Assembly (NCBI RefSeq): GCF_000002865.3
Contig: NW_001865078.1
Location: forward strand, 316,196-359,380
DNA from: Monosiga brevicollis MX1
Lineage: Eukaryota > Opisthokonta > Choanoflagellata > Craspedida > Salpingoecidae
Length of the DNA stretch: 43,185 bases
Direction: 5' to 3'
Below are positions 4,324 through 43,185 of the stretch, piece by piece. How positions within the stretch are numbered: position 1 is the first letter of the stretch; every line of letters starts with the position of its first letter. Made by a program: the position numbers and the translations under genes. The notes beneath the pieces were generated by a model, which saw only the letters and a program-made list of their open reading frames with translations, was not told the origin of the DNA and ran no database searches.

Positions 4324-4329
4324 ATTTAT
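4324..4329 (-). promoter_or_regulatory. Poly(A) signal overlapping the VDAC stop codon
   Basis: On the minus strand the last codons read CAA TAA ATC, so AATAAA uses the last two bases of the Gln codon, the TAA stop and the next base. Cleavage here would leave a very short 3' untranslated region, in keeping with the tight convergent spacing to the plus-strand gene ending at 4163. Confidence 0.5.
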
Positions 4330-5622
4330 TGGCTGAGGGTGAGGTGGAGGCCAACCTGGTGCTTGTCCGAGGCGAGGGCGTTGCCGGCAATGTCGGCTGA
4401 GAGACGGAGAAGGACGCCGGGGCGGACGGCAACAACGTAGCTGGCGTTAATGTCCATGGCGGTGTTGATCTTGACCTTGGCAAAGGAAGTGGCGTCGAGA
4501 CGCTTTTGGGCGGCAACGGCGAGGGAGGTGGCACCCGAGGTGCGGTTCCAGCCAAACTGGACACCGGCCTGGACGGCGGGGTTGACAGCGTGGAAGATGC
4601 TGCCATCGACCTTGGCGGCGTCGGTGATGGAGGTGCCAACGATGAGGTCGCCCTCACGGTAGCCGACGGTGAACTTGGTGCCCGAGGGGGCAAAGGTACC
4701 GAGGCTGATGTTGCTGCTGACGCCAAAGAGGAAGTTCTTGTAGCCAAAGCAAGTGGTGGCGTTGATGGCCTTTTGGGTCACGTCCATGGTGGCAGTGAAG
4801 GCATCCTTCTTCAAGGCGGTCTTGAGCTTGAGGTCCTGAATGCCAGCTGTTTCAAGTGACAAAGAAAGGCAGGGGGTGTGCGTTAAGATGGGACAAACAT
4901 GGGCAAAGGAAGGAACGCGCATTCATGGCGAAATTCTCGGTCAAAAGTCATCAGTTGGGAGAGGGGGAGGGTACCAGGCGGGCTTACCGTTGGGGACAAA
5001 GTTGGCGCACAGGGTGGCATCAGAGCCAGCAACAACCTTGTTGGCAACGCCGATCTCGGTGGCCACAACATTCTTGGTGGTCCACTTTTCCTTGATGCTC
5101 ACACCGGTGGGCTATTTGGTCGTGAGAAGGGTTGAAGAGAAAAGAAAGGGGTCAGTCCACAGGCTGCGAGCTGCGTGAATATGGAGTGAAAGAGATGGGA
5201 AGATACTGCGTGAGCACAGACCTTGTGGGTATACTTGGTCTCGAGGAGAGCGTTGACGGCACCGCTGGCGTTAGAGCGGGCACCCTCGACCTTCAGGGCC
5301 TAGCAAACCGCATCACATCGAGAACAGCATGAGATGATCGTCGTGCTGGTCATGGGTAACCCACTGAAAACAAAAGAACGCGCTCACAAACACACAGAAG
5401 GGGGAACAGAAAGGAGCATCAATCAACGTACAACGCCGTTGGCGGCAGTCGACTTGAGGGTGAGCTTGTTCTCGGCGCCACCTGCGGGGGTTGAAAAAAA
5501 AATGAGGGTGAATTGACACGGCGGTGGAAATGGTGGCTGGAGGGCGGCGCTGACCTACCAAAGTCATCGGAGAAGAGGTCGTTGGCCGCACGGGTGATGT
5601 CACCAGCCTTGGGAGGAGCCAT
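4326..5622 (-). CDS. VDAC: Mitochondrial outer-membrane porin VDAC
   Basis: Exons on the minus strand, 5' to 3', are 5559-5622, 5432-5481, 5222-5299, 4988-5111 and 4326-4846. They give 278 residues, close to the usual 280-285, and all splice phases fit. The product is the voltage-dependent anion channel, a 19-stranded beta-barrel that passes ATP, ADP and other metabolites across the mitochondrial outer membrane. The start is MAPPKAGDITRAANDLFSDD, matching the N-terminal helix region of the family. Amphipathic strands then alternate through the chain, for example ENKLTLKSTAANGV and GTKFTVGYREGDLIVGTSI. The end, KHQVGLHLTLSQ, matches the conserved last strand in which a hydrophobic and polar alternation closes the barrel. 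The minus-strand AATAAA (4324-4329) overlaps the TAA stop. No disruption is seen. The protein family is clear. Which VDAC paralogue it is cannot be told. Confidence 0.93.
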
Positions 5623-11100: not shown

Positions 11101-13015
11101 ACCTATGCTCCAGCCAACGTGATGGGTGATCTGAGCAATGCGTTGGCGCGGCGACTGCAAAATCAAGGCGACTGGTGCGGTGCCCTCGCAACCTTGCCAG
11201 GATTGTGGCGTGTCATCGAGGCAGAGGAAGCTTGCTCATTTGAATGCTTGCTCTTGTCTGTCTCGGACCTTGATTATCACTTAGGTTTTCCGCATGCCTT
11301 TGCTATGTGATTGCTGGTGCTTTGGACGATTTTGGCTCGTGCTATGGCGCTCTCCTGCAGGATTCTGATTTGACTGATGCACAGCAAGTGTACGCATGTG
11401 TCGAAAAGTTGACGGTGTTGCGTCGCGCCCTTGCGCTACAGCGTGGCCAGTCTCCACCCGTATCCCCGGCCTATACGCAGCGCGTGCTCGCGCTCTGCTC
11501 CACGTTGGCAGATCAGCACGATCTCAAGGCAGCCTATGGTATCCTTTCGGCGGCCATCGAGTCCACCGACCCATGGCCACGCACGGCCGCGCCGACCTTG
11601 CGCACCCAATTGGCCGTGGCGGCGGGGGCCAAGCCCCTGCCCACCTCGATCAACCCCAACGCCGTAGCTTCTGCACAGCTGCGCGCCAATCTGGCCCAGT
11701 CCAGCCCCGGTTATGGCGCCAATGCTGGTCCCAGTGGCTTTTTCACGGGTCAACCTGCGCCCACGCACATGTCCAACCCGGCGGCTCGCTCGCCATATCC
11801 ATCTTCGGCCATGAACGCATTCAGCCCCGCTAACATGGGTGTCCCCAATGGTCATGGGGCCATGTCCGCTGTATCAGCTGCCTACGGCACGAGTCATGCG
11901 CCAGCCACCATGCCTGGTGGTTACGGTGCTTCGGGTGCCACGCCCTATCAGCCACCTGCGGCGTCTGCGCCTCACTCTTCAGCTCCGCCCCTGGCAGCAC
12001 CGGCCCCAACGTATCCCGCCAGCTCCTCTTACAACCCCTCGATGGGCTATGGTGCCCCCCCGCCCTCCCGCTTGTCCGCTTCTGCGTCCATGCGTCCAGC
12101 AGCCGGCATGACTCCGCCCATGGGTCTTCCCACACAGGCAACCGCCTCCGTGGCGCCCATCACCACTCCTGGCATGTACGCAGGTGGCCACATGGGTGCC
12201 AACGTGGCTGGGGGTGCCGTGCACGCTGCCGCGACGCCCGCAGCAGCGCCCGTCGCGGCGGTGGCACCCAAGGCGAAGCCAGACAAGCGCTGGAATGACC
12301 CTCCCATGATCATGTCACGGAAGAAACAGCAGTTCCAGGCCCCGGCGCCCATTGCCATGCCCATCGTGGGAGCACCAGAGCAGGCACAGAGCCAGCCAGC
12401 TGCATCGGCCATGGCTGCAGCTGGTGGTGCAACTGCACATGCAGCCATGGGCGGCGCTGCGTCACCAGCTGCAGCGGCGGCTGAGGCAGCCCCAGCTCCG
12501 GCGCCCGAACCCGAAGTGCCGGCCGAGTTTCAGCCTCTGGTCGAAAAGTTTGAGGCCTTGGTGGACCAATACGATGCGCGAGCCAATGCCGTAAGGTTTT
12601 CGTTTCTTGTTCTTTTGTTCCTAGCTCACCCGATGTTGCTGCACTCACAATTTGCAATCTCATGTGTGTTCAGGCACAAAAGCGCAAATTGGCCGACGTA
12701 CGCCGGCGATTGTTGAGCTTGAAGCAAGTGGCTGCCAACCAGTACTTGGATTCGGAGACGGGACAGTCGATGTTTTACAGTTTGCAATACATTGAGGTGC
12801 GTGGTGCAAGCGGCGCGCGGGTGTGAGCTGCATCGTTCGCCGTGCCTGGGCCACTCACATGCTTGCACAAACCTGATGTTGCATAGCTTGGGGATTTTGC
12901 CAATGCCCTGGCTTATCAGCAGTACCTCACAGCCAACACCAACCCGGATGTCACGGGGCAACCCCTGATGGCGCTCAAAGCGCTGATCAACATTGCCAAG
13001 ACGCAAAGTTCTTAA
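8166..13015 (+). CDS. SEC31: COPII outer-coat protein SEC31
   Basis: SEC31 pairs with SEC13 to form the outer cage of COPII vesicles leaving the endoplasmic reticulum and stimulates the SAR1-SEC23 GTPase. Thirteen exons (8166-8222, 8333-8385, 8502-8646, 8727-8800, 8926-8962, 9076-9498, 9600-9777, 9934-10426, 10536-10769, 10947-11174, 11285-12590, 12674-12796, 12887-13015) give 1159 residues with all phases matching. The start MIIQSLERTAHLAWNP matches the animal N-terminus. WD40 repeats follow, with hallmarks SEVYIMDLNKPE, GRTTIWDLRASKA, VIQLWDLHNAQ, NRALLWDP and WIFDVNWCPRNP, then the blade-closing segment LVATAAFDGQV. Next come the ancestral coatomer element helices (FDLAIDVCLAEDRMADALML, WQDCMALLLTYA, LCYVIAGALDDF). 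A Pro/Ala/Gly-rich low-complexity region (about 11700-12500) is the usual SEC23-binding linker. The C-terminal helical domain ends ALKALINIAKTQSS. A His-rich insert (GGSGHHHHHTP) follows the propeller. Confidence 0.95.
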
Positions 13016-13828: not shown

Positions 13829-16800
13829 ATGTCCGAGCCATGGTGGGGTGTGATGGTGGCGCTTGGGGTGCTTGTGGCGCTGACGCGGATGGCTGCCGGG
13901 GATGGGGCTGAGGATTGGCGGGAGACGGTCGCGGTGGGTGGGCTGGATGCGCCCAGCTGCACAGCCATGGATGATGTGGACGGCGATGGTCGGGCCGACT
14001 TGGTTGTGGGAACCATGACCGACCGCAAAATTGCTTGGTACCCGCACTTGGGGGCGGGGCTGTACGGCAGTCAACACCTTGCATGGCTCGGCGCCTCCCC
14101 AATCACCTTCCTGGCCGTCGGGGACCTAGACGGCGACGGTGCTCCTGATATCGTGTTTGCTGATGAGAGTGCCGCCGGTCTACGCTGGCTCCGTAACGGG
14201 CGCGCCACAGGTGAGCCGTTTTCGGCGAAAGCCGCGAGCCTACCCATCTCCATCGTGCCAGAGACGGTCAATGCCCTGCTACTCGTTGACCTCGATATGG
14301 ATGGTGCCCTGGACGTGGTCGGGAGCACGACGTTGGATGGCGCGGGCGGTGAGCGCGTCTTGAGCTGGCATCGAAACAGAGGTAACGGCACTTGGCACGC
14401 CCCCATCATCCTGGCCCAAAACGCCGCCGATCCCTACTTTCACCTTAGCACCGTTGATCTCTACGGAGACGGCCATTTGGCCTTGCTGCACATTCGCAGC
14501 AGTGTTACCACCATGATTCCGAGCTTTTATCCCAATGGCACCCACAGCCCACCGCGTGCCGTGGCTACCGCTGGCTGCTCCCCCTTTAACTTTGCCGCTG
14601 GCGACATTGACGATGATGACCGTGCCGACCTGGCCGTGGCCTGCCCTTCAGAGGGCATCATGGGCTGGCTGAAGAATGCCGGTGATGGAACGTTTGATTC
14701 CCTCGCCGTCATTGGCAGCGCCATCGCCGGTATAAATTGGGTCGTCTTGGGGGACTTGAATGGGGACGGACAACTTGACCTTGCGGCCGTCGCTACCGCG
14801 GCGCCCATCACGCTCTTGTGGGTCCGCAATCGCCTTCACACCGCATCTCAGCGATTTGGTAGCCCCAGTCCCCTCACCTTTCCGGGGTCCGGCATCGCTG
14901 GCATTCACCTTTACGATCTCAACGAGGACGCATTGCTCGATGTTCTTGTCATTATGAAATCTGGTGATCGCATTGGCTGGCTGGCCAACACTGGGGGTGG
15001 TGTCTTCCCCACTGAAGCCACCCCTTTGGTGTCCACCGTCAAGAATCCCACCGTGGCTCTGCCCGTCGACATGGATGGCGACAGTCTGCTCGACTTACTC
15101 TGCGTCTTCAATCAAGGCAACGCCATCTCCTGGTTTCGTGGTGACGGCACGGGACAGTTTGGACTGGAAATCAGTCTGACCACCGCGGTCGAAAGCATCT
15201 CATCCATCACCGTGGCAGATCTCGATGGCGATTCTTTGCCTGACCTGGCTGCCGTGAGCGCGATGCAGGGGTCTCTGATGTGGTTGCGCAACGAGGGCGC
15301 CGGCGCCTTTGCCCAACCCACCGTTATCGCCAACGACCTTGATCAGCCTTTCGTGGTGCTGGCTGCTGACATTAACGGCGATGGCGCTCTTGACCTGGTG
15401 TCAGGGTCTAGCGGTGCCAGCACCGTGTTTTGGTCCCGCAACCTTGGCAACGGTGCATTTGCAACCACAGCCATCCTGCTGGCCAACATCTCCGGCCCTT
15501 ATGCGCTCGCGTTTTCAGAGTTGGATGGCGATGGTCGACGCGACCTCGTGGTATCCAGTTTCTTCCAGGCTGCTGTCTACTGGTATCCTCAAATCCGACC
15601 TGGCACATATCGTCCCCAGAGCCTGGTTGGCAGCGGACTTGAGGGGGCAATAGACCTGGCAGTCGCGGATCTGGACGGCGATGGGTGGACCGACGTGGTG
15701 TCTGCGGCCAGTGAGGACAACAGCGTCTTTTGGCACCAAAATCTGCAAGGGCAAGGGTTTGCCAACCCCAAGCTCGTGTCGAATGATACTCTGGGCGTCT
15801 GGCGCGTGGCAGCGGGCGATCTAGATGGCGATGGGCAACCCGACATCGTTGCTGGGTCAAGCACCGACAACACGGTGGCGTGGTTTCCAAACCTGGGCAA
15901 TCCCACCTCGTTCGGAGGCAAAACTACTTTAATCTCCTCCGCCATGGACTTGCGTGACATGCGGCTCGCTGACTTGGATGGTGATGGTGACCAAGACGTG
16001 ATTGTGGCAAGCTTTGCCGATCATCTTGTGCGCGTCCTTATGAATCCTCGGTACGTGTGCATGTTCGTGCCGTTTGAGAAAGCACGCGTCCCGACGAACG
16101 GCTCACGACGCCTTGTCATGCTTGCTCTGGTGCCCACACGTGTAGCTACACCGCGCCTGTATGGGACCAACCCGTCGGTCTTGCCGACATTGTGACAGTG
16201 CAAAACCGCGTCCAAGCAGCTATCATGTTCAACGAGAGCGCCGTGTTGTTGGCGAGTGTCCCGGATGTGGCCCAACCCACCGCGGGCACCCTGCGTGTCT
16301 TGACACAAGGGCCAACGGGCGCGTGGAATTTTGATCGCTTTTTGGCGTCGCCACGCTATGGAAGTGGCTACCTAGTACGCCAGTTGCTGGCTGCAGAGTT
16401 TGGCTTTGTTGTGGTAGAAGCACCGGCTTCAGACGCCGACGGTACCCAGCTATTGTTCTATGCGCACAACGAGTTGGAGCCTCGAGCTGCCTTGACCCTG
16501 CGCCCTGGCGCCCGGGGCGAGCACGTCACTGTCGCAGGCCAGACGCTGCATTATTTTCAAGGCCGAGTTGGCAGCGAGGTGGTGGCGCCTGTTTGCTCAA
16601 TGCCCCTCCCCGCCGAGCTTCCAGCGACCTTTACAACATGGTCGTCCGAGAACGCGGCCTGCTTTCCTGTGGCAGTGTCGACCACCATTATTGTGCAGGC
16701 CGGGGAGCAGCTGCTGGCCGGAGGCACCGGCATCTACTCGTTGCACATTGATGGCTCGCCGTTTGGGGCTCTTCGCACAGTTCTGTCCAGCTCCGATGCC

Positions 16801-19640
16801 GAGCGCATGACGTTTTGTCCTGTGGCAGCCGTCACAACCACGGGGCGCCAGATCTTCACGTTAATCCTAGACAATCAGCTGTATCTGGGCGTATGGGCCG
16901 TTGCCTACACGCAGGGCCTCTATCTCCAGTCCATGCACGCCATGGCCAACTGTACTGAACCTCGGGCCATGCACCTGCTCAATGACGCCACCCTCATGCT
17001 GACGTGTGTGGATCCGTCGTTCCTGCACGTGGTCGTGATGCACATTGAAACGGGTTTGGCCACGTGGGTCTACTCTGAGTTACTGCCAGTACCTTTGGAT
17101 CCTGCAGCCGGGCGCTTGGTACCCCGAGGCAATGCGACGAGTGCCACCTCTTTTTTCATGCTAGGTGGAACGGGCCTCGTGCATTTGGACATGGTACGCT
17201 TCGTAGATCATGACACGGGCACGCCTCTATGGGACGCCACAACATTGGTAAAGCCTTTTATTTCAACCGTGGAATTTTACTTGATTGTCTTTTCGGGTGT
17301 GCTGCCAACCGCCCCACCCCGCATTGAGACGACGATGGCGAGCACGCTGCCTTTTACTGTCGATTCAACTACAAGTCAGCACCAAACGAGGGCTCCAACC
17401 GAGATCGCCAGCACCACGTTGGCGCCCCAGCCGGCTGGATCGGCAGAGAGCAACGGCGGCAACGCAATTGTGGCGGGCGTAGTAGCGGGTGTCGCTGCCG
17501 TGCTAGTGGTTGCCATTGGCGTTGTTGCCTGGCACCGCCGTCGACAGCGGAAGCCTTTGCCCAACGGGGCGCTTGGCATAGGAGACATTGTCCCCATGTC
17601 CTCCGCGGAACAGATTGAGCTCTGTCTGTTGCAGTTTACGGATCAACTACGCAGCCCGGGTTGGCGCGGCGGGCGAGGTCCACAACCGCTGAATATGGCC
17701 TCACAGTAAGTTGGATCAGTAAACTCGGCGCACGCTGCGCACCAAGCACCGCTTTGGTTTTTCTCAAAGCCTGGCACTTTTGCTGTAGGAAATGGTTGCA
17801 AGATCTGGGCCCACTAGGTAAAGGCAACTTTGGCGTGGTGCGCAAGGTTGGTTCTACTGTGCGCGCAAAGCCTGCAAAAGTTCAGCAGCATCCGAGCAGC
17901 TGACAAACGTGGTTCAATTGTTAACAGGCCAAACCCATACGCCACACGGAAAAATTTGGCGACCAACTAGTTGTGGCGGTCAAGCAATTTGAAAGTATCC
18001 AGGTCCGTCGTGGGGCTGAGGGGGTGGAGACTGTGCCATTGCTGGGGAATCGAAGAGCTGTGCTTGCTCACGTAATTTCTGCTGCTGGCCAAGCAGGCTG
18101 CTGATTACAAGGCGGTCATGATGGAGGCGGCTCTCATGCACACGGCTGGTCGACACCCACACATTGTGCAGTTGCTGGCTGTGGTGCAAGACAGGTACGA
18201 CCTTTGGAGACGACGAAAAAGAAGAGTTCTCAAGGAGAGCGAGAGCGAGCGAGAGGGAGCGGGAGAGAGCGAGAGAGAGAGAGCGAGACAGAGCAAGAGA
18301 GAAGGTGGAATAAACTAAAGGACGCAAGGGAGCGGGGGATTGCAGACCATTAAGAGTGTTGATGGCGCGTGCGTGGTTGTGCGTGAATGCATACATGCAG
18401 CATGCCCATTTCGCTGGTCTTGGAGTATGCAAGTCTAGGTGAGCTGCGAAGCTTTTTACGCAAGCAAGCAGCAGGGTCTCTTCGTTATGACACACAGGTT
18501 TGTGGGTCCTTGATTTTTTTCACGCATAGCCGCTTGTCTCGGAACAGATTGGGGATGAGGAAGTGTCCATTGACATTTATATCCACGCTGACTTAGATTG
18601 AATTGGGCGAGCACGTGTCTCTTGGGCTAGCCCACGTGCACAGTTGCCAACTGGTGCATCGTGACCTGGCCAGCCGGAATGTGTTGCTGTTTCCGCGGTC
18701 GGGGCGCGGCCCGCTTGCCAAGCTCGCCGATTTTGGCCGTATGTGCTGTCATCTTTTACTTGGTGGTCGGCCTTTGTGTGTGTGTGTGTGTGTGTGGCCA
18801 TTGCTTCTCATGTCAACTCTCTCCCCTCCTTTTTCTCTCCAATAACTGTGACAGTTACGCGTTATGTGTCATCAGACCATGCCTACTATCAAGCATCCAG
18901 CTTGGATGACCTTCCCTTTCGGTATGACTAGCTACTGCTTCTCCCTCGGCACTCGGGTCTCATCGCTCTTTGCCGTCGTGCGCCAGCCCGACCCTCAGAG
19001 GCATCATCTTCATGCCTTTTCCTTTTTTCCTTCTTTTTCTCCACAACAGGTGGATGGCTCCCGAGGCGTTGCTGCGCGCCCAGTTTTCGCCGGCATCGGA
19101 TGTGTGGTCCCTTGGCATCGTCATTTGGGAGGTTGGTGCGCCTGCTTGTTGACCAAATGGATCTGCCAAGTGCGCAAGGGGCGGCCTTGCGCGCGTGCAC
19201 ACCAGTGGGAAATGAACGGCCGTCGGTCGATGGATCGGTGCTCATCTCAACTTTGTGACTGGATAGATATTTTCCCAGGGGCGAACCCCCTTTGGGGAGC
19301 GCACCATGCAGATGATGCTCGAGCTGCTGCAGGCTGGGAAGCGCCTGGATACGCAGCACATCCCCTCGGCCCTGCATGCGTACGTAACGGCGAGAACTTG
19401 GACGATTGGACAGTTGTCCATGGTTGCTCATTTTGATTGTGCGCCCTGTGTTGTCGACGGTCGTTCCTTAGGCTTTTGAGCGCGACGTGGGAGGCCAAGG
19501 CAGAGCTGCGACCCAGCGCTCAGGCCGTGGCACAGGCGTTGCAGGAGCAGCACGCCCCCATGGCAGGCTTTGCGGACAATCGCGGCCTTTTGGCCCTGGA
19601 AGAACCTACCGTTTTGGAAGAAGCAGAGAGTGTCTTATGA
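13829..19640 (+). CDS. Receptor tyrosine kinase with FG-GAP/VCBS ectodomain
   Basis: Eleven exons (13829-16050, 16146-17705, 17789-17846, 17928-18002, 18097-18194, 18401-18497, 18597-18738, 18855-18921, 19050-19131, 19267-19379, 19472-19640) give 1560 residues. A signal peptide ([20 protein letters not shown]) is followed by 14 FG-GAP/VCBS repeats of about 50 residues in residues 40-730. Each has a Ca-binding-type motif such as [13 protein letters not shown] or [13 protein letters not shown]. About 430 further extracellular residues follow, then a membrane helix near 1180-1203 ([18 protein letters not shown]). The cytosolic kinase keeps the Gly loop GKGNFGVV, the Lys in VVAVKQF, the helix-C Glu in [18 protein letters not shown], a YY pair in the activation loop, RWMAPEAL and [17 protein letters not shown]-x-RN with RWMAPEAL is typical of tyrosine rather than Ser/Thr kinases. 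The product probably signals from the plasma membrane. The ligand is unknown. Confidence 0.9.
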
Positions 19641-24344: not shown

Positions 24345-24939
24345 NNNNNNNNNNNNNNNNNNNNNNNNNNNNNNNNNNNNNNNNNNNNNNNNNNNNNNNN
24401 NNNNNNNNNNNNNNNNNNNNNNNNNNNNNNNNNNNNNNNNNNNNNNNNNNNNNNNNNNNNNNNNNNNNNNNNNNNNNNNNNNNNNNNNNNNNNNNNNNNN
24501 NNNNNNNNNNNNNNNNNNNNNNNNNNNNNNNNNNNNNNNNNNNNNNNNNNNNNNNNNNNNNNNNNNNNNNNNNNNNNNNNNNNNNNNNNNNNNNNNNNNN
24601 NNNNNNNNNNNNNNNNNNNNNNNNNNNNNNNNNNNNNNNNNNNNNNNNNNNNNNNNNNNNNNNNNNNNNNNNNNNNNNNNNNNNNNNNNNNNNNNNNNNN
24701 NNNNNNNNNNNNNNNNNNNNNNNNNNNNNNNNNNNNNNNNNNNNNNNNNNNNNNNNNNNNNNNNNNNNNNNNNNNNNNNNNNNNNNNNNNNNNNNNNNNN
24801 NNNNNNNNNNNNNNNNNNNNNNNNNNNNNNNNNNNNNNNNNNNNNNNNNNNNNNNNNNNNNNNNNNNNNNNNNNNNNNNNNNNNNNNNNNNNNNNNNNNN
24901 NNNNNNNNNNNNNNNNNNNNNNNNNNNNNNNNNNNNNNN
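24345..24939. other. Assembly gap (595 N)
   Basis: A run of N flanked on the left by a GA repeat and on the right, after a few bases, by a CA repeat. This is typical of a gap caused by simple sequence. It begins 62 bases upstream of the HMG-box start codon, so the promoter of that gene is partly missing. Confidence 1.
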
Positions 24940-27863: not shown

Positions 27864-28477
27864 ATGCTGTTGTGTTGGGTTGCGTGCAGTCTACTTGTGG
27901 TGATGGGCTCGGCAGGGGTGGATGCTGCTTTGGTCGTTTGGGGTCGATCTGGACGGCAACCTCCACATTAATACCTCCTCAACGGGTGGCGATATGCGTT
28001 TGCTGCTCAATGGGGTTGATGTGCTGCAAGAGCTGGCGGATCTACGCAGAATATGCGCCGAAAGAATGGTCACGCCCACAGTGATTTACTCGGGGACAGT
28101 CGGCTGCCAGCTGGATAGAGTGCCCTTGGATGTGACGCACATCTCCGGCAACATCAGCCTGATGTCATGCTCACTTTTGACGGCAGATGACCTTCAAGTT
28201 TTTAGCAAGCTCGTTCACGTGAGCGGGCACGTGAGCATTGAAGTGAGTCTCAAGTTGTCTTCATCTTTTGCATCTTGCTCGTCAGGAATGAGAAGCAGAA
28301 TGCCGCAGCTTGCCTTGTTGTCAACGGTCGGGTGTTGCGACGTGTGAGCCTTCATGACGGGTTGCGATTACAATGTGATCTGCACAAGTTTGGGTCCCCC
28401 GTATTGGCACGAGCACCAACAGGCCAAGGCAGGGAAGGAGCGGTGCGTAAAAGGAAATTTGAATTTCTCAGCGACTT

Positions 28478-28511: not shown

Positions 28512-31500
28512 GTCTGGATAGTTCAATTCCGTCTTGACCAATGTGGATGGGCTCGCCCGCATCACCAGCGTCGGCGGCTACTTGACCATCAACGTACGTT
28601 ATTGCATCGGGACGTCATACATTTTGTGTCTTTGAATGGGGCACGTCTGTTGACGTGCAGGAGCACTGTGGTGGGAGATATCGTGCCTGTGGGGATCTAA
28701 TGGATTGCTGTGTTGACTTGACACGGAATAATGCCGCTTTGGCCAATGTGAATGGACTTGCCAGTCTCGGCAGCGTCGGCGGCTACTTGTCCATCACTGT
28801 ACGTTACTATTTAAGGGCTCGTTGCTTTGAAATGAGCGTTGCCGTTGACGCGGATGAGAATTTTGCTGGGGTGCTCTCTGCCTGCACCACACACACACAC
28901 GCGCACACACATATCCCAGCATGACCACCGGCCATTCTGAATCCTTCTTCTTCTTTTTCTTTCTCTTCATTTTTGCCTTCTTCTTCTTCTTCTTCTTCTT
29001 CTACTTGGGACTTCTTCTTTTTCTTCTTTTTTTTTTTTTTGCCTTCTGCTTGGTTCTTCTTCTTCTTCTTCTTCTTCTTCTTCTTCTTCTTCTTCTTCTT
29101 CTTCTTCTTCTTCTTCTTCTTCTCTCTCTTCACCCCCCTCCTTTTCTTCCGCCTGTCATCTCTCTGTCATACATCAGCCATGATCAACCAGTTTCAGGAG
29201 GCTCTGCGCTGTGCTCTTTTGCCGTGAACCAACATTCACCTGAGGGATTGCTTCGCGGGCTGGGATAGGATAATTCCAACTTGAGCAACGTGAATGGACT
29301 CGCCAAAATCACCAACGTCAGCGGCTACCTGCACGTTTCTGTACGTTGCTGCATCAGGGCCTGCCACTTTGAATGGAGCGTGTCTGTTGACGGGGATGGC
29401 CATTCCGTGGGGATGAATCGGTTTGTTTTTGTGGTCATCTTGCATGGGATAATGACGCTTTGACCAATGTGGATGGACTCGCCAGCATCACCAGCGTCAG
29501 CGGCTACTTGGCCATCTCCGTGTGTGTTTGGAAGAGAGCGCGACACCTCGACTGCGTGCCTGTTGACATGGACTGTCATGTCGGGGACGGTGTGTTTTTG
29601 TTCATCTAATGGATTCTCGTATTCAAACATGGGTTCAACAGGGAAATTCGGCCTTGACCAATGTGGATGGCCTGGCCAGTATCACCAGCACCGGTGGCTA
29701 CTTGACCGTCAACGTACGTTGCTGGATCGGGACGTGTTGCCTTGAATGGGGTGTGCCTGTTGACGTCGATGAGTATACTGTTGGGATGGTGTTCTCGTGT
29801 GCATCTAATGCATTGTTTTTTTGCATAGAATAATGATGCTTTGTGCAATGTGGATGGTCTTGCCAGTATCACCCGCATCAGTGGCTACTTGACCATCTAC
29901 GTCTGTACTTGTATGGGGCGTGTTATTTTGAATGGGGCCCGTGTGGATGTGGGAGGGCATGTCATAGGTGTTCGTGTGTTTGTGTTCGTCTAATGACTGG
30001 CTTTGTTGGTTTGCATAGCATAATTACAACTTGACCAATGTGGATGGACTTGCCAGTCTCACCAATATTGGCAGCTTCTTGGCCATTTACGTACGTATTT
30101 GTATCAGGTTTTGGCGTTTTGAATCAGGGGGAAGGCTGTTCACGCGGGTAAACATAATGTTGAGGGTGTGCTGTTCGTGTCTGTCTGACAGCTTGTTGTG
30201 TTCATGCACGGTTTCAACAGGGGAATTCCGCCTTGACCAGTGTGGACGGACTTGCCAGCATCAACAGCATTCGAAGCTTTTTGTCCGTTTTTGTACGTTG
30301 CTGTATCAGGGCGTGGCACTCTGATTGTGGTGCCTGTGTGTACGTGATGAGCCGAACGTAGGTATTGGTGTGCTAGTATGCATCTGATGAATGGCATCAT
30401 TGGCTTGCGTAGGATAATTCCAAATTGACCAACGTGAATGGACTCGCCAGTATTACCAGCGTAGGCAGCTACCTGTCCATCATTGTACGTAGCTGCAATC
30501 AAGGCCTGTCATTCTGTGTGTAAACCCGGTGGAAACATGATGTTGGAATTGCCATGCGGCTGATGGATTGCTTTATTGACTTGGATAGAATAATGACGCT
30601 TTGGCCAATGTGGATGGACTTGGAAACATCTCCAGTGTTGGCAACTACTTGTCCATCACAGTATGTTGTTATGTAAGGCCATCTGTGGACGTGGGTGAGC
30701 ATCATGCCGGCTTGTATGTGTGCGTCTGACGACTTGTTGTGTTGTCTCGGTCAGGAGAATGCTGCTTTGACCAATGTGAATGGACTTGGAAGCATCTCCA
30801 CCATTAGCAATTCCTTGGACATCTCTGTGCGTTGCGGTACTTGACTATGGCGCGCCTGTTGGTGTCAAGTGGGTGGCATTCGTCTGTTTGTGTTTGTCTG
30901 ATAGATTGCTTGGTTGGCCTGCATAGGATAATTCCAACTTGACCAATGTGGATGGACTTGCCAGCATCACCAGCGTCAGCGGCGAATTGTCCATCACTGT
31001 ATGTTGCTCAGTAGAACGTGTTGCTTCGAGTGTGGCACGTGTATGGATCCATATGTGGGTAGGCATGGTGTCTGAGGTGGTGTGTTGGTTGTCTGTGTCA
31101 AACGGCTTGTTTCGTGCATCAACAGGGGAATCGCCTTCTGGCCGACGTGGATGGACTTGCCAGGGTCACCAGCATCGGAGACTTGTCCATCGCTGTACGC
31201 TGCCGCTTCACGGCGTGTCACTCTGAATGTGCCGTGTCCATGGCCGCAGCTACACGTTAAGTTGGGGCGGTCTGTTTGGATGTGTCTGATGCCTTGTTGT
31301 CTTGCACAGAACACGACGCCCTGACGAATGTGAATGGACTTGCCAGTATCACCAACATTGGCAGCTACCTGGCCATTGCCGTAAGTTGCTCAATCAGGTA
31401 GTCTGACTGTGGCACGTCCACCGACGTGCCACAGTATAGGGCTGAGGGTATGTGTATGTGTGTGCGTCTAACAGCCTGTGCTATGTCCGCCCCAACAGGA

Positions 31501-33569
31501 AAATTCGGCCTTAACCAATGTGGATGGATTTGGAAACATCACCAGCGTCAGCGGCTTTTTGTCCATCACTGTACGTGACTATGTGAGGATGCATCTCTCC
31601 GCATACGGCGCGTGTGGGCGTGGATGGGCATTTTTGTTGGGGGAGGCGGAGTGGATGCGGCTGACGGCTTGATGTGTCGTTTCGGGTAGAATAATGACGC
31701 CCTGACCAATGTGAACGGGCTTGCCAGTGTAAAACGCCTTGGCAGCTACTTATCTATCAATGTACATAACTGCAATGAGGGCGTGACACTGTTGAATGTG
31801 GCGCGTGTGGACGCAAGAGAGCGTCCTGTTAGGCTTGCTGCGCTAATGTGCGTCTGACGGCTCACACAGGGGAACGCCGCCTTGGCCAACGTGGGTGGAC
31901 TGGCCAGTATCACCAGAGTCGGCGGCTACCTGTCCATCTCTATCTCTGTACGTGTCTACATCAGGCCGATTTACTTTGACTGTGGCAAACCTGTTGATGC
32001 GGGTAGGCATAGTGTTTTGGTCGCTTGTTTGTGACCGTCTGATGTCTTCCCGCGTTGGCTCAATCAGAATACTGAGGCCTTGACCAATGTGGATGGGCTT
32101 GAAAACATCTCCAGTGTTGGCAACTACATATCCATCACTGTAGGTTGTTGTGTCAAACAGTGTCACTTTGAATGTAGCTTGCGTATGGGTTTTGGAAAGC
32201 ATATCGCAGGTGATCGTGGGTATAAGCTCGTCTGATGAGTTGGTTTGCATAGAATAATTTCAACTTGACCAATGTGGATGGACTTGCCAGTATCACCAAC
32301 ATTGGCAGCTACCTGGCCATCTACGTATGTGCTTATATAATGACGCTTCAATTTGAATGGAGTGTGCCAGTTGACCTGGATGAGAATCATGTTCAGGGGT
32401 GTTCTATTCGTTTTTGTCTGATGGCTTGTTGAGCTGGCTTCAACAGGGAAATTCCGCCTTGACCAGTGTGGACGGACTTGCCAGTATCACCAGCGTCGAC
32501 TACTTGCACGTCATCGTATGTTGTTGCATGTGGCATCCGACTGGAGCGAGTATGTTGTTTGGGTGGTGTGCTAGAGTGCACTAATGGCTTGCTCCATTGG
32601 CCCGCATAGAATAACAACGCTTTGTGCAATGTGGATGGACTTTCCAGTATTGCCAACGTTGGCAGTAACTTGCACATCAATGTACGTTGTGTACAAGGGC
32701 GCGTTACGTTCAATGTGGCACGTCCGCGGACGCGGACGATTGGTGTGTTTGTGTGCGACTGATGGATTGCCTTGTTGGCTCCAACAGGAGAATCCCGCCC
32801 TGACCAATGCGAATGGACTCGGCAGTATCATCAGCGTCAGCGGCTACTTGTCTGTCTACGTGCGCTTCTATATCATGCCGTGTTACCCCGTGCCTGGCGT
32901 GTCTGTCGACGCGGATGAGCATTTTGCTGGGGTTGGGTGTGTTTGTGTGTGTCTAATGGATTTCCTTGATTGGCTTGCATAGAATAATGACGCCATGACC
33001 AATGTAGATGGATTTGGAAATATCACAACTGTCGGCCGCTTCTTGTCCATCAACGTACGTAGCTGACCTGAGGGTGTTCATTTTGAAATCAGCGCTTGTA
33101 TGGATGAGTGAGTGCCGTTGGGATTGGTGGGGTAATGTGCGCCTAACGGCTTGCTTCATTGGCCCGCATAGAATAACAACGCTTTGTGCAATGTGGATGG
33201 CCTTGCCAGTCTCGGCAGCGTCGGCGGTTACGTGTCCATCTCTGTACGTTGCTGCGTAGGCCATGTTACTTGAAGTGGAGGATGTGCGTGCACTTGGCGA
33301 GTGGAACTTAAAATTGGTCGCTCATGTGCGTTGCTGTGCTGGGTCGAACAGTATAATGACGCCTTGACCAATGTCGGTGGACTTGCCAGTCTCGCCGAAA
33401 TTCGCGGCTACCTCTCCATCACAGTAAGGTGCTATATCAGAGAGTGTGGTCTGGCCTGTGGTACGTGTGTGGCTTTTGGTGGCATAGTGCTGTGTGTTTG
33501 CGTGCGTCTGACGACTTGTTGTGTTGGCTTGGTCAGTGGAATTCCAACCTGACTAGTGTGAGTGACTTG
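27864..33569 (+). CDS. Surface protein built from exon-encoded L-domain-like repeats (3' end lost)
   Basis: The first coding part has a signal peptide (MLLCWVACSLLVVMGSAGVD) and then VDLDGNLHINTSS with further beta-rich sequence, ending at a GTGAGT donor at 28243. After it come 26 similar exons, each normally 72 nt, phase 0 at both ends, encoding 24 residues with consensus NNxALTNVDGLASITSVGGY plus LSI. This matches the repeated strand-turn units of receptor L-domain / leucine-rich solenoid proteins. Most donors are GTACGT. The predicted product is an extracellular beta-solenoid of over 600 residues for adhesion or recognition. Oddities: the signal-peptide frame and the following frame differ by one base near a GGGG run (27940-27943); some repeat exons lack usual splice sites or frame; and the last repeat (33537-33569) is cut off where transposase sequence begins. 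It may be a recent pseudogene or may use exon choice. Confidence 0.6.
28522..33569 (+). repeat. Tandem array of 26 exon-intron units, about 185 bp each
   Basis: Repeat exons begin at 28522, 28727, 29269, 29448, 29642, 29829, 30019, 30221, 30413, 30589, 30755, 30927, 31126, 31310, 31499, 31690, 31870, 32068, 32253, 32447, 32610, 32788, 32983, 33172, 33352 and 33537. From the fourth on, spacing is 163-202 bases. Introns are themselves related, with a shared GT-rich middle, a segment like GTCTGATGGCTTG and an end like TTGCATAG or TTCAACAG. Lengths differing from 72 are unit 13 (69), 14 (71), 17 (78) and 20 (69). The first three introns are longer and hold poly-T, CA and CTT microsatellites. Confidence 0.9.
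28942..29129 (+). repeat. (CTT)n microsatellite in an intron of the L-domain gene
   Basis: CTT-rich pyrimidine tract with a long pure CTT run at about 29055-29120, between repeat exons 2 and 3. It explains the unusual length (about 470 bases) of this intron. Confidence 0.95.
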
Positions 33570-34852
33570 TCAATCCCGACTGCATCATCAATTGCGATGA
33601 GACTGGCCTGTGCTGGAAGCAGATGCCCAGCTACCGCTACGTCAAAGAAGACGACATCGTTACAGGGCGTGGAACAAAGCTTATGAAGGACAAAAACCGA
33701 GTGACCCTCGTTCTAGCCACAACACTCTCCGGGCTGAAAGTACCCCCATTGATCATTGGGACAGCCAAACGCCCGCACTGCTTCGACTATGATCCGCCAA
33801 ATGAAGGAGATATCAATCTCTACACCCACCAGCAAAGCGCCTGGGCCGACAGAGCCAAGATTGTCCATTGGATCAACAAAATCCTCCTTCCTTGGAAGCG
33901 ACGGTTGGTTGGAGCAGCAAAGATCCTTCTCATCTGGGACAACGCGCCCGCGCACAACGTGAGCAACTTCGAGTTGGATGCGCCTGCGGAGGAGCTTGAA
34001 ATTCTCTGCCTTCCCCCAAACCTCACCAGCCAATACCAGCCCATGGATGCCGGTATCATATCCGCGTTCAAGAGACGTTACAGAACCGCCATGATTCACG
34101 AATATGTGAAAGTCACGGCCACTGACGAGGCGTACAAACAAGCTCTGGAACGAGGCGAAACGACAAGGAAGCGCAGAGGTTGCTCAACGCTTGCCCAAGG
34201 CATCAAGTATGGTCAGATGCCCAGCATGTCTGATGCTGTCAATCTTTCTGGCAAAGCTTGGGGGGAATTGACAGCTGAGACGGTGACCAATTGTTGGCTC
34301 AAGGCAAAATGCCTCCCTGCAACTATAGTCCGTCCACATGCTGACTCGTTGTCCATAACCGCGACCAGCTTCACCCCCATGGAGACAAACGGTGATGCAT
34401 CAACAGATGAGTTGAGCGACACGGACCTGCCTGCACTTGTGGCAGACGAGCTGAGCGACACAGACCTGCCTGCACTTGTGCAGGCCATGGATCACATTAG
34501 CAATGTTGTCCTCCGCAGCGGCCCGCCAGACATCTGCGAGGAGCTCGTGGAGGAAAGTGAAGTGGCGCTGGCTGAGAAGCTTCAGGCGCTGAGATTCCAG
34601 TTGTCGTCCTATGAAGACACTGAGGCGGTCACTGTCGCAATGTCCAGGCTGGTGCTTGAGGACGAGGTCAACACTGCCCACCAAGCCGCCGAAGAGCAGC
34701 GAGTGGAGGCTGAACGTCAAGTCGAAAATCAACGCGAAGTCAAGTCCTTGAAGGAAATAGCTCTGAAGTACGCCGAAGCATACTATGACGCTCTCACCCA
34801 GCTGCGCCTACGGGGCGAGGAGACGGGCGAAGCCATCGAGCGTTTGAATTAG
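33570..34852 (+). mobile_element. pogo/Tigger-like DDE transposase, N-terminal part missing
   Basis: An uninterrupted frame from about 33575 to the TAG at 34850-34852 encodes the catalytic core of a Tc1/mariner-superfamily pogo-type transposase. It begins CIINCDETGLCWKQMPSYRY, with the first Asp at 33596. The second Asp lies in LLIWDNAPAH (33938) and the third in QYQPMDAGIISAFKRRYR (34046), with 35 residues between the second and third, as in the pogo DDD class. The helix-turn-helix DNA-binding part (CENP-B type), expected upstream, is absent. At about 33570 the sequence changes into a host repeat exon. The C-terminal part is acidic then coiled-coil-like and holds a 39-base tandem duplication. 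No left terminal repeat exists and the right end was not identified. Excision would need a complete transposase from elsewhere. The transposase frame differs from that of the adjoining host exon. Confidence 0.85.
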
Positions 34853-37910: not shown

Positions 37911-38542
37911 AATGGGTGACGCTTGTGGTGGGCTTGTGGATCGCTATGCAAACAGAAAATGAAGTCAAACGAGAAGAGCGGGCTTTGCTGAACATCTGGA
38001 GCAAAACAGTCCATCCACCGAAACAGCGTATGTTAGCGTCAAATCCGATCACCTCTGGATTTGGACACTCCCACTGCTTTCGCTTCCCTTCAGCAGCACC
38101 TGCTATGGGTCTGACCGCATCATTTCCGCACAAACCCAACACCCACACACTGAAACACATGAGTAACACCGCGTGCTCCGCGACCCTCGCATACCTTGTG
38201 TTAGCGTCAAATCCGTGCTTCAAACCTACGCGCTTCCTCGCAACCCAAAACCGGCCTCCAGACGCCCTGGAGCCTGACACCTTGGGGCCGACTGCCATGC
38301 GTAATAAGCTTGTGACGATTATTGTATTTCTTGCTGACACGCCTGCGGTTGAGCAGTAGTCACATTTTCCTCAGGAATGAGATTGGGCGACTCTGAGCTG
38401 TTCTAACGGTGCGCCTGGTCTGGTCACTGTGACTGCTCGTCAACCGCAGCCGGTCCAATTGACCAACAAAGCTCTCTATCCGTCCCGACGGACGTCGCAC
38501 AACCCTTCCAAGCCGCTTCCTCAACTCTTACACAGCGTGGGC
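37911..38542. other. Intergenic or upstream-exon region
   Basis: Between the ankyrin gene stop and the first in-frame ATG of the helicase gene. A frame from 37907 to 38359 has a hydrophobic start but overlaps the ankyrin stop and has no recognisable content. The helicase frame is open upstream to about 38429, after a possible acceptor (CAACCGCAG ending at 38450), so an earlier exon may lie here. A 17-bp direct repeat occurs at 38031-38047 and 38199-38215. Confidence 0.4.
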
Positions 38543-41500
38543 ATGACGCTGGTCATCAACGAGCTGAAGCCAGAGCGCATGGTCGAACTGGGCCACAACA
38601 CACCGTCGGCACTCCTCGAGTCGGGCATGCACGAGCTGTTCTGGTCGGCCTACGAGCAGCTCTCGGATCAGGGCCTGGCCGCCGCTGCGGTGACGCGTCT
38701 GTTTGACGACAATGAAGGGCAGTATCAGCATCGCCCCATGCGGCAAGTACAGCCGCAAACCGTCAGCAGGTACCTGAGTCTTGGAACACGCCTGGTCCAA
38801 TTTTTGCTGCTGCTGGAGGCCATGCCAGCCCCCGATCCGTCCAGCTTTCTGGGCCAGGTGCTTGCCAGCCGTGGCCCTGCGGTAATCAATGCCACCGTGG
38901 CTCTGAGGGCGGGCCTGGACGATGAAATGACCAAGAAAGAGCTGGTCGAGCCCCTGACGTCTCTGTGGCTGGCCCTGGTGGAGGTGGAGCTGAGCCTCTT
39001 TGACAACGACAAGGTGCACTTTGTCAACGTCTTCTTATTGTGCACGGCCGTGTCCAAAGGAAGCGGCATCCTGCAAGACATCAGGCAGTGGACCACGACG
39101 CCCGCTGGACTGCTGTACGTTTTCAAATTGTTTCTGCTTCGCCGTGGCAAGAATGAGTCGTGGTCAGTGGCCAACGAGCTCAGGCCGTATATGCAGCCCG
39201 GGCGATTGGTGCATTTCTTGAGCCAGCGCATGAGCATGGCACGAACAGCGAGCGTGGCCGAGGGGCAGGCTGGAGTCGACGTCGAGGTCCGAGCCGATGG
39301 CGACGTGACGGACGAGACGCTGCGCACCATTGTCTGTCGAGGCATTGAGCTCAATGTGGAGGAGCTCGGGGCTGCATTGGAGCAGATGCGCAAAGACATG
39401 ACGGAAACTTTGGACAAGCACCTCTTGCTGGACTCACGCCTGCGGAAAGATTACGAGAAAGAATATGAGCGGCTGCGATTGAAGGAGGATCGGACCAACA
39501 GGGTCAAGAACTGGTGGGTGGGCCATGGCAGTCCAGCCGAGAACGCGCTGTTTGATCACATTGGCCAGACCCCGAGTCTGCGGCAAGAGTTTATCCAAAC
39601 GGAGCATGGGCCCAGTGGCGAGCTGACCTTTCGAGAGAACAGGGTGCGGGTATGGCTTTCATATGTGTGCAGGTTCAACGAGCTAGCACTCACCTACACG
39701 CACATTGCCGGAGGTACGATTGAATCAAGCCGTCTCTTGGCTTTTTTTTTTTTTTTCTTTTTTTCGCGCCACTCATGCCTGTTTGCATTTGACTAGGTCT
39801 GCCGCCACGAGCCTCTGTGTATCAAGGGCTGTCCTACGAAAACGGCGTTGGCCGGCAACGATCTGCGTTTTTTGCCGAGAAGCAGCTCTCCATATTGACC
39901 CGCGTGAGCAAGACCTACTGGCTGTCCCTGAACGAACAGCATACCTTTCGATACATGGATCAGAAAATCAGCACGCTGATATTCATGTATTTGCTGCTGT
40001 GCAAGCCTCTGGAGCACATGCTGAGCAGCTGGCTGCAAAAGCGGGGCAGCCTGAAAACCCCCGACGACGAGAATGGCATTCACAATGCCGAGCAGGACGA
40101 CGAAGATTTGCTCGACGACGAGCTGGATGAAGACCACATGAGCCACAACGAGACGATGACTTTGCGACGCGAGGTCCGGGACGCTCGAAACCACTACAAC
40201 AACAGCCACCTGCTCTTCAATATTGCGCCCCTGCAGACGATGGTCAGCCCAGCCACCATCTATGCGGCATTTCGTCGGCAGATGACCACGTACCTGCATC
40301 GGCCAAAGCTGGGGGTGGCCACGTGGCGACACGCCGCAACCTTCTGGATGACGACGTTTGTCATTAACCGACTGTCGGCCGAGACGACCGGCGCCCTGGG
40401 CAGCCTGATCCACACTCAAGCTCAACACTCTGGGGACACGGCCCAGCGGGCCTATGCGCGCACAGCGAGTGACCATGTGCAAACCAAAATGTCGTCGCGA
40501 CTGATGCATCAAGTGGCCTCGCAAAAATGGCATGCTTTGTTTGGACTAGATCGCAAGCGCAGCATGGCCAAGTTGACAGCGAACCAAGAAGCATTGGAAG
40601 CTCGCTATCCCATCAGCTGGAACCCGGTGACTGACCTCTCGCCCGAGGCAAACGGGCGTATCATCATGAACACGAGGGCCGAGCATGACGTACCCTACAT
40701 GACCCAGCTGGCCAAGCAGGCAAGCATCTCGTGGGGCCACAGTTTCAACAGCCAAGAACAGTTGGACCTGGCTGCGGCCATTGATTAGCACCGGCCGGAG
40801 GATGGATGGCTGATTGTTGTTGCACCGACAGGCATGGGCAAAGCATTTTGTACCCTGCCCAAGCTGGGCTGTCGCCCGCATGCCGGTACGGTGCTGTGGA
40901 TTGTGCCGTTTGTGGCCGTGGCCAACGATTTATTGCGGCGATTTCAAGGCGCAGGTCACAGTGCCCAGCGATGGCTTGGTCCCTCTACACAGGTGGCAGA
41001 TGGCCTGGACGTGCTCATCGTTACGACCGACATGTTTGTCCGCGTGGGATCTGAATCGCTACACGGGAAGGTCTGCTTTCAGCGCATCCGCACCGTGGTG
41101 ATGGACGAGGCGCACACACTCATCTCGGATGCCAGCTACCGAGATGTGATGGACTAGGTCGCAGCCAGTGTGGGCTCTGGCAGATGGACCAACATCAAAC
41201 GCGTGGCATTGACGGGAAAACTTTGCATCGGGGACCAGGAGCATCTGTTTCGAAAGCTGGGTCAGCAAGTGGGGGGCAAGGTGTACCGTCTGGAGACGAT
41301 GCGGCGCGATCTGCAGCTGCGTGTGCTTCACGGAAACCAGCCAAACTTTTTGTCGCATGTGCAAGCCATTGTGGACACGCAGCGTAACATGCGTCAGGCG
41401 AATGGGGAGCGTGTGCACATGATGGTCTTTTGTGACACTGTGAACGAGGTGAAGCTGCTGTGTGACCAGCTGCACGCACGCGGCTACGTGGCCTTGCCCT

Positions 41501-43185
41501 ACTACACCGACCTGGAGGAGAAGGCGCAAAAGGACCATGTGGCACAGTGGCAACGGGGTGAATGCGACGTCATTGTGGCCACCAGCTGCCTCAGCACGGG
41601 TGTGGATCTGCTCACCATTCGCCACGTGCTGTGGTATGGCAACGGCTACAACATCTATACGCTGGCCCAGGTACGTTGTTGCTCGAACAGTCGTGTTACT
41701 GTATGGATTTGAAAATAAAAAAACAAAAAAAAAACAAATGTTGGTTTTGCTGATGGTGTACATGTGCTTGGGCTAGGCCTTTGGTCGGGCTGGTCGCGAT
41801 AAACAGGGTGGAACTGCCGAGCTGTGGCTACCAGTGAGACGTGGGCCAGCACCAGGCATGGAAACTTTTGTCGAAGGCAGTGCGTGCCGCAGCTGGGCGC
41901 TCGGCAAGTTGCTAGATCCCCGCGCCGCGACATGCTTTGCTGCCGGCCAGCCGCTTTGTGACGTGTGCGCAGGAACAGCACAGCGCCTGGAGCCAGCAAG
42001 AGCTGCACGCCAGCAGCGCGCTGCCCAAGCGTTGAGTGTGGCGCATGTGGAAGCAGAGCCCGAGGCGATGGCGGAGGAGGAAGATGTGTTGTCTGAGCCA
42101 CCTGCAGCACGGCTCGAGGAAGAAGAATCGATCGGGCCAGAGTCCGCCTTGGATGTAGCTTCAGCATCAAACGTCGAAACGGCAGCGTCTTCAGGACCAG
42201 CTGCCGTTGCGGCGCAGTCGAGCAGAAGCACTCCACGTGCCCAGGACACGGCTGTGGTGGCGACAAATGCAGGGCCAATGACGGATGCTGCCGTGCCACG
42301 GATACAGACAAGTGATGCTTGGATTGATGAGGCAGATACAGCATCCATGTCGGTGCCAGCTTCACCCATGGTCTCTGATGCTGATGACGAGGCGCCTTTA
42401 CAGCAAGACGCGCGTGGCCCGGCGCAAGCCACGATGGCAGAGGACGAGAGCACGCCACAGCCAGTCATGCAGTCAGCAGCACAGCCAACCCCCACGAAAC
42501 ACGCGCCAACCCCGTCGGCCTCGATCATTTGCGTGCCAGTACCATCGGCCTCGGGTTCAACCTCGTCTCTGGCGCGATCGGCTGCAAGCTCAGCCTCGGG
42601 TACACTGCGGCGTAACCGAGTGCCGCTGGTTGCTGAAAGTTCATGTACCCCTGGGTCTGGCCATCATGACGATGATGGCAACGGCATCGCTACCAGCCCT
42701 GCTCCCTCAACATCCAAGCGAACGGCATCGGACGTCACGTGCACAGCTGCTGCTTCTTCAACAGCGGTTCAAGCAGCAGAGTCGCCTCTTCCCGCAGCAA
42801 AACGAGCAGCATCAAGTGGCACGCGCACCGCTACCGTTGCCGCTACTGCTACCACTCGCTCTGAAGCCACGGTATCTGCTGCGGCTACGCCACCGAATCG
42901 GCACAACGTCGCGCCAATATTTCGGTCGAAATCGGGGACAAAAAAAAAAAATCTGATGAACTACGCGGCGGCTGACAAGTTTATTGGCGTTCTGAAGTTG
43001 ATGGATGATTACTGCATGCGATGTACCATTCGACAGGCGAAACCCGTCCTGAAGGCCGAGCATCAATGCGTATGCAATTGTGGTTGCAAGNCGGTGTCAC
43101 CTCAAAGGACATGAGACAAGTGAATGTTTCGTGGGCGGCAAATATCCCAAATGGACGTGTTGCTACGCTTGTGGAATGCCAAGGA
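38543..43185 (+). CDS. Tyrosine-recombinase-like / RecQ helicase protein (TLH-like), runs off the window
   Basis: Exons are about 38543-39713, 39797-41670 and 41777 to beyond the window end; the true start may lie upstream. Residues from exon 1 to about 40790 contain a long helical region, then KISTLIFMYLLLCKPLEHML, GVATWRHAATFW (R-H at 40321-40332) and AQHSGDTAQRAYAR (H at 40426, Y at 40453). This series resembles a degenerate tyrosine-recombinase fold, as found before the helicase in fungal telomere-linked helicases. A RecQ-type helicase follows: Walker A APTGMGKAF (about 40822), DEAH in VVMDEAHTLI (about 41098), ATSCLSTGVDLLTIRHV, and motif VI AFGRAGRDKQGG. A long acidic, Ser/Ala-rich linker leads to a Cys cluster (CMRC, CVCNCGC, then CCYAC). 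Two in-frame UAG codons (40786-40788, 41155-41157) lie in the helicase with an open frame on both sides. The ambiguous base at 43091 disturbs the frame. It could be a decayed copy or a mobile element gene. Confidence 0.7.
40786..41157 (+). other. Two in-frame UAG codons in the helicase coding sequence
   Basis: UAG at 40786-40788, just before the Walker A region (context AAID, stop, HRPEDGWLIV), and UAG at 41155-41157 after the DEAH box (context RDVMD, stop, VAAS). Both are in the helicase frame, 369 bases apart. No frameshift separates them and no splice-site pair around either was found that would remove it while keeping the motifs. Confidence 0.85.
43091..43091. other. Single ambiguous base (N)
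   Basis: One N inside the Cys cluster at the end of the helicase gene. Counting it as a base leads to a stop within 24 bases. Ignoring it keeps a Cys/His-rich frame (RCHLKGHETSEC, then KWTCCYACGMP) open to the window end, so it is probably a spurious inserted base in the assembly. Confidence 0.8.

Follow-up and report, generated by a model that had tools for sequence, protein, structure and literature searches.

Leucine-rich repeats (LRRs) that are each encoded by a separate exon have been described for the human NLR genes (NOD/NLRC and NLRP), which combine exonic modularity of the LRRs with alternative splicing and in which most NOD and NLRC genes devote one exon to each 28-amino-acid LRR (excerpts of PMC6642158). 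For the choanoflagellate Monosiga, seven LRR receptor kinases have been reported (excerpts of PMC3268121), and LRR receptor kinases of Monosiga are also noted in excerpts of PMC2939053. Here we consider a stretch of 43,185 nucleotides from the genome of Monosiga brevicollis MX1, referred to below as the window, which carries a long tandem array of short exons and introns, with one LRR encoded per exon. We consider it likely that this array is a dead or dying copy belonging to a family of putative LRR receptor genes which varies by exchange of its repeats. Receptor kinases with LRRs and genes with one LRR per exon are thus both already known, and it is the family of arrays that appears to be new. 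The words "exon" and "intron" are absent from the main text of PMC3268121, and a literature search among open-licence papers found no description of these one-repeat-per-exon Monosiga arrays.

Structure of the array

Searching the window with an nhmmer model built from five seed units yielded 25 full-length units, with E-values between 7e-11 and 2e-24, and a partial 26th (E 2.7e-4), all on the + strand and extending from position 28522 to about 33586, while the next-best match in the window had an E-value of 0.96. A sequence-only reading of the same stretch had described about 26 copies, ending at 33569, with similarity between the exons as well as between the introns. This description holds, since the end agrees with the truncated 26th unit and mean pairwise identity is 57.7% for the introns (24 introns of less than 200 nt), against 40.1% when shuffled, and 70.0% for the exons (25 exons; unit 2 entered two bases out of register). 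Because the introns are alike as well as the exons, the duplicated unit consists of an exon together with an intron.

Twenty-two of the 25 complete units are clean, in that they are preceded by AG and followed by GT, have a length divisible by three and carry an open frame in phase 0; their exons measure 72 nt (n = 19), 69 nt (n = 2) or 78 nt (n = 1). The exons had also been read as phase 0 at both ends, which is correct for these 22 units and fails for units 2, 4 and 14. Units 2 and 4 have GG at the acceptor position instead of AG, and no AG that could open the exon was found from 14 nt upstream to 9 nt downstream of the start of the match, while unit 14 retains both AG and GT and is 71 nt long and frame-shifted, with stops. 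Introns between complete units (n = 24) range from 94 to 133 nt, with the single exception of the intron after unit 2, which extends over 470 nt. Coordinates are collected in Table 1.

Coding properties of the repeat

When joined, the 22 clean exons (528 amino acids) match the Recep_L_domain profile (PF01030) with an E-value of 7.5e-22 and a score of 78 bits (cut-off 21.8); LRR_5 scores 29.6 bits against a cut-off of 27.7 and LRR_EndoS likewise lies somewhat above its cut-off. The L-domain or LRR identity that had been proposed from the letters is therefore supported by the profiles. A search of the genome for Recep_L_domain as a family returned five places, a result which neither supports nor counts the arrays, single exons probably being too short to score.

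Compiled from 93 units of many arrays, the majority repeat reads xNxALTNVDGLxxLTSVGGxLxIx. Across the exon border this repeat contains LxIxxNxxL, with the intron in its middle, and we take LxIxxNxxL or LxLxxNxxL to be the LRR core motif. Among 20 units of the window (units 2, 13, 14, 17 and 20 being left out) the pooled ratio of nonsynonymous to synonymous rates (dN/dS) is 0.48, or 0.59 uncorrected, and at codons 2, 5, 7, 8, 10 and 11 the proportions of nonsynonymous and synonymous differences (pN and pS) are 0.00–0.09 and 0.19–0.57, respectively. For a set of 173 units, restricted to those of 72 nt without stops and with exact duplicates from overlapping loci removed, the entropy averages 3.29 bits at the five positions written x in the motif (22, 24, 1, 3 and 4), compared with 1.58 bits at the other 19 positions, and a value this high was reached by one in 20,000 random sets of five positions. 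The repeat thus shows what is expected of an LRR solenoid, a conserved core motif with variable x positions. Since the x positions of LRR proteins face the solvent on the concave side, the variable residues would sit where contact with a ligand is to be expected.

A family of related arrays

The genome was searched with two composite protein queries for the repeats, and the family is known here from the sequence of this one genome; L and C labels denote fetched loci and contigs of M. brevicollis. The gene-specific portion (33 nt) of a reverse primer published for the M. brevicollis kinase RTKC8 (PMC10263333) is found in this genome with no mismatch, at C21:293445, as expected for M. brevicollis or a very close relative. 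A query with the N-terminal exon gave 50 rows in the same genome. At 17 of the 18 distinct N-terminal-exon places that were fetched (20 loci, window included), at least three repeat matches follow on the same strand, and the eighteenth, L035, ends in a gap of Ns.

Outside the window, 21 loci contain 181 distinct repeat places, 153 of which show AG and GT exactly at the unit borders; among shifted controls the figure is 16 of 2519 (0.6%). Inspection by eye assigned the remaining 28 to 13 terminal units, which read into a tail of the form ..C.N.., two units in intronless genes, two inside N-terminal exons and one at the end of a locus, together with five that are broken or doubtful and five whose borders are shifted by about one codon. 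If the first four groups are set aside, 163 internal units are left, and exact borders are found in 153 of these.

The arrays terminate in two ways. Six of them (L009, L011, L013a, L014, L015 and L027) close with ..C.N.., a short cysteine-containing tail and a stop, and members of this kind would produce secreted proteins; a Pfam scan of two such caps and one N-terminal exon found no family. At L028 (C33, about 230–235 kb) the array is followed by a cysteine-containing segment, a membrane segment recognised by eye and tyrosine-kinase exons, one of which matches PF07714 with an E-value of 1.5e-16, while the cysteine-containing segment matches LDL-receptor-A below the cut-off (20.0 against 24.1 bits). 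Kinase exons occur downstream of three arrays, on the same strand, at C33:230392 (the query), C33:36976 (81%) and C37:6882 (80%); distance and strand suggest that those at C37:6882 and C33:36976 belong to array genes. No array could be placed at a fourth kinase place, C51:1380987 (84%).

A typical member would begin with a first exon for a signal peptide and N-terminal cap, continue with phase-0 exons of one 24-residue repeat each, and end either in a cysteine-containing cap and stop, if secreted, or in a membrane segment followed by a tyrosine kinase. Its units would be joined by constitutive splicing into a single LRR solenoid resembling the receptor L domain.

Several further frames were encountered. 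Long open frames of 370–778 amino acids carry the same type of repeat, with no introns separating the repeats, at C33:43383, C47:1122869, C23:66330, C48:1244663, C11:220086, C46:26967 and C45:1102384. Several of these frames are close to contig ends, and the exon arrays may have descended from them or have given rise to them by retro-copying. Beside a C12 array, at L011:5385-10000, lie FG-GAP-like frames with a leader similar to the one found in the array genes (..NGVDVL..), which may mean that a first exon of this kind has been combined with another type of ectodomain. A frame of 3170 amino acids at C55:9028 was set aside because it runs through an N gap.

Probable exchange of repeats between and within arrays

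Units are more alike within arrays than between them (65.2% against 53.9% identity, with none of 300 label shuffles giving as large a difference), and all 21 window units used for this comparison have their nearest relative in the window array. Two pairs of genes illustrate how arrays come to differ. The pair on C12 is 95.5% identical over a 5' stretch and 88.5% over a 3' stretch, yet one gene has 17 units and the other eight; the longer gene includes two out-of-phase units. The pair on C10 is 99.0% identical over 880 bp that include the first two units and 92.5% identical over the next 320 bp or so, beyond which no match was found at E 1e-5 in the stretch of approximately 1.1 kb compared from the second copy. 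Differences of this kind, here between copies within one genome, are what unequal crossing-over or gene conversion among units would produce. A difference in unit number and content is upheld for related copies of the same genome. There is good support for diversification through duplication and recombination at the DNA level, with recombination the presumed cause of the differences between arrays.

Because the unit borders lie in introns and the exons are symmetric, repeats could be exchanged without a break in the frame. Unequal crossing-over or gene conversion between units would add, remove or swap repeats in this way, and selection would keep the LRR core while letting the exposed face vary.

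Probable decay of the window copy

In the window the first exon is split. Its signal-peptide-like start at 27864, a candidate signal peptide, resembles MVSPWVVCSLLVVMGPAVVHA of L009, and the N-terminal cap that follows is out of frame with it, while in seven relatives (L009, L011 and L033–L037) both parts share one open frame. At the other end the array runs into a transposase gene, presumably of the pogo type, and the portion of the transposase ahead of the DDE domain is absent where the gene joins unit 26; in a relative, L031 (a 601-aa frame), 143 residues of open frame lie ahead of the matching point. That the array and the transposase have fused to encode a new protein was considered and rejected, because unit 26 is read in another frame than the transposase, whose N-terminal part is lacking. 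No kinase match was found near the window array, either in the search of the genome with the kinase exon or, among the matches listed, in another search, and in place of a transmembrane segment and tyrosine kinase the array leads into the transposase gene. The sequence-only reading had mentioned neither the 5' exon at 27864–28242 nor the transposase junction.

An open frame with splice sites from start to stop is thus not present: the first exon is split, two acceptors are lost, unit 14 is shifted and the 3' end is missing. For these reasons the suggestion that this locus could make a working variable surface protein was not supported. We regard the window copy as a probable pseudogene in decay, chiefly on account of the split first exon and the missing 3' end.

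Location near contig ends and the possibility of an active diversity system

The window constitutes the last 43 kb of contig C17 (316196–359380 of 359,380 bases) in a genome of 39.47 Mb. Removal of nine rows with E >0.001 and six second pieces of the same gene from the 50 rows of the N-terminal-exon search leaves 35 places, part of which were checked for arrays; 28 are on contigs of known extent and seven are not. Of the 28, 19 are found no farther than 50 kb from a contig end, where at most 14.4% would be expected (binomial p 2e-10), and 14 no farther than 25 kb. The places are not independent of one another: on 12 of the 16 contigs, one or more fall inside the 50-kb limit.

Downstream of the array, a helicase exon provides a second indication. 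It has 23 rows in the genome, 18 of them at 70–99% identity (window included), and 15 of these 18 copies are no more than 28 kb from a contig end and share one orientation with respect to it; the other three, on contigs of unknown extent, could not be judged. The frames at 38429–43114 may belong to the same helicase gene. Telomere-linked helicases of fungi are comparable end-linked genes, and the Monosiga gene is a candidate chromosome-end marker. Because its copies lie at contig ends in one orientation, true chromosome ends are suggested, and a location of the arrays near chromosome ends is likely; such a location would favour exchange between arrays.

These observations invite bolder readings. 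It is conceivable, if doubtful, that some 17 to 35 LRR receptor or secreted genes, many of them near chromosome ends and reshuffled by recombination with or without a choice of exons, constitute a system for recognition diversity at the DNA level, whereby cells or strains would differ in their recognition surfaces and damaged arrays such as that of the window would be by-products or donors. If true, modular recognition diversity at the DNA level would exist in a unicellular relative of animals. A related and more specific proposal is that an active diversity system operates near the chromosome ends, with repeats reshuffled so fast that strains or lines differ and with the window locus as donor or by-product. 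The enrichment near contig ends, the uniform orientation of the neighbouring helicase, the C10 pair with its near identity followed by divergence, and the variable exposed face all speak for it; we nevertheless judge it improbable, given that the comparison covers one genome, that many arrays are internal or are old and diverged, and that the contig-end rows are not independent.

Possible exon choice and the case against decay

Alternative splicing would offer another route to variation, with subsets of symmetric exons being chosen and damaged units skipped, so that each locus could yield many lengths or combinations of ectodomain. Any subset of the 22 clean units can be joined in frame, three broken units persist within an otherwise open array, and skipping of LRR exons does occur in those human NLR genes that devote one exon to each LRR (excerpts of PMC6642158). 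Tandem duplication alone would already generate symmetric exons, however, and the first exon of the window copy remains split between frames whichever units are skipped, and we regard this explanation of the locus as improbable too. That a non-coding tandem repeat reads as exons by chance was rejected as scarcely credible: the tandem units with similar introns and the lesions of the window copy would fit, but not the match to Recep_L_domain, the dN/dS value with core codons near-fixed in residue and not at synonymous sites, the exact splice borders elsewhere or the kinase or cap at the 3' ends of relatives.

The preferred explanation, a decaying copy within a family that varies by repeat exchange, has to be set against several opposing points. 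As regards decay, most units (22 of 25) are clean and the dN/dS ratio is lower than one, and any decay must therefore be recent or partial; the frame would be kept if units 2, 4 and 14 were skipped, so that strong grounds for regarding the copy as dead are confined to the first exon and the missing 3' end. Any excess of broken units is weak, with three of 25 in the window against three to five of 163 internal units elsewhere (p 0.03 to 0.07), where L027 4914, L009 6497 and L009 6102 are clear cases and L042 2391 and L049 2580 doubtful ones; the L009 array itself has two out-of-phase units. Some of the lesions could be errors of sequence or assembly, and the 3' junction could be a misjoin. As regards exchange, only 83 of 173 units over all arrays have their nearest relative in the same array, and in L013-, L015, L016, L022a and L039 the units resemble one another no more closely than they do units of other arrays; a number of arrays are old and have diverged. 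The entropy test was not blind, in that the five x positions were chosen after the per-codon rates of the window were known, and position 20 is equally variable (3.14 bits). As regards location, the last 5 kb of the window contain no TTAGGG hexamer, four TTAGGG in a row occur at one place in the genome, and contig ends may simply be where repeats stop assembly.

Features of the window

Table 1. Positions of the array, its units and associated features, numbered from the first base of the window
Feature	Position	Strand	Basis
5' exon start: ATG and signal-peptide-like stretch, frame 0	27864..27950 (end approximate)	+	resembles L009
Rest of 5' exon, N-terminal cap, frame 1, ends phase 0 before GTGAGT	27940..28242	+	
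Complete array, 25 units (exon and intron)	28522..33423	+	nhmmer and border check
Unit 1 exon, 72 nt, intact	28522..28593	+	
Unit 2 exon, frame open, GG for acceptor AG	28727..28798	+	
Unit 3 exon, intact	29269..29340	+	
Unit 4 exon, frame open, GG for acceptor AG	29448..29519	+	
Unit 5 exon, intact	29642..29713	+	
Unit 6 exon, intact, donor GTCTGT	29829..29900	+	
Unit 7 exon, intact	30019..30090	+	
Unit 8 exon, intact	30221..30292	+	
Unit 9 exon, intact	30413..30484	+	
Unit 10 exon, intact	30589..30660	+	
Unit 11 exon, intact	30755..30826	+	
Unit 12 exon, intact	30927..30998	+	
Unit 13 exon, 69 nt, intact	31126..31194	+	
Unit 14 exon, 71 nt, frame-shifted, stops	31310..31380	+	
Unit 15 exon, intact	31499..31570	+	
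Unit 16 exon, intact	31690..31761	+	
Unit 17 exon, 78 nt, intact	31870..31947	+	
Unit 18 exon, intact	32068..32139	+	
Unit 19 exon, intact	32253..32324	+	
Unit 20 exon, 69 nt, intact	32447..32515	+	
Unit 21 exon, intact	32610..32681	+	
Unit 22 exon, intact	32788..32859	+	
Unit 23 exon, intact	32983..33054	+	
Unit 24 exon, intact	33172..33243	+	
Unit 25 exon, intact, donor GTAAGG	33352..33423	+	
Unit 26, cut off after about half an exon	33537..33570	+	
DDE_1 transposase gene, 3' part	33571..34852	+	PF03184 5.5e-25 on 33623-34852
Helicase_C exon, gene repeated near contig ends	41170..41712	+	PF00271 6e-13

Upstream of the array, the window encodes a eukaryotic porin on the minus strand at 4326–4922 (Porin_3, E 3e-25) and, at 9010–12716, a WD40/beta-propeller-like frame (below Pfam cut-offs) followed by a Pro/Ala-rich frame, together Sec31-like by eye. 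The region 13829–17709 begins with a large FG-GAP protein, PF13517 matching in 11 stretches on 13829–16195, and continues with an open frame at 16192–17709 that has no Pfam match and a membrane-like stretch recognised by eye; this is perhaps another surface protein. A run of Ns, an assembly gap, is located at 24345–24939.

Significance and comparison with known systems

To our knowledge, how choanoflagellates recognise prey, mates or pathogens is largely open. If the proposed family is real, receptors with interchangeable one-repeat exons would be a concrete and testable candidate for such recognition and, with some array genes linked to kinases and many near contig ends, a candidate for the way in which modular LRR receptors diversify. 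By itself the locus in the window is of less consequence, because it is apparently broken.

Among the closest counterparts are the LRR receptor kinases of the same species, which, as described in the excerpts cited above, combine an LRR ectodomain with a receptor-type kinase; three array genes likewise have kinase exons downstream. The published gene identifiers could not be matched to these loci, and the window copy differs in that no kinase was found. With the human NLR genes, on the same partial basis, the arrays share frame-preserving LRR exons that match the repeat units. They differ in their unit of 24 amino acids, in phase 0, in the presence of 25 similar copies with similar introns and in a signal-peptide-like first exon, and they are known solely at the level of genome sequence. 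The repeats of the window match the Receptor L domain profile (PF01030) above its cut-off; the domain as found in the insulin and epidermal growth factor (EGF) receptors is compact, whereas the array is a long run of single repeats. Two further systems for comparison are the lamprey variable lymphocyte receptors and the subtelomeric surface-protein families of parasites; for the arrays, no sign of somatic assembly or switching was seen, though no search aimed at either was made. The lymphocyte receptors are LRR proteins with a variable number of modules, a property that the array genes share, and the parasite families, expanded near chromosome ends, would resemble them in the location of that expansion.

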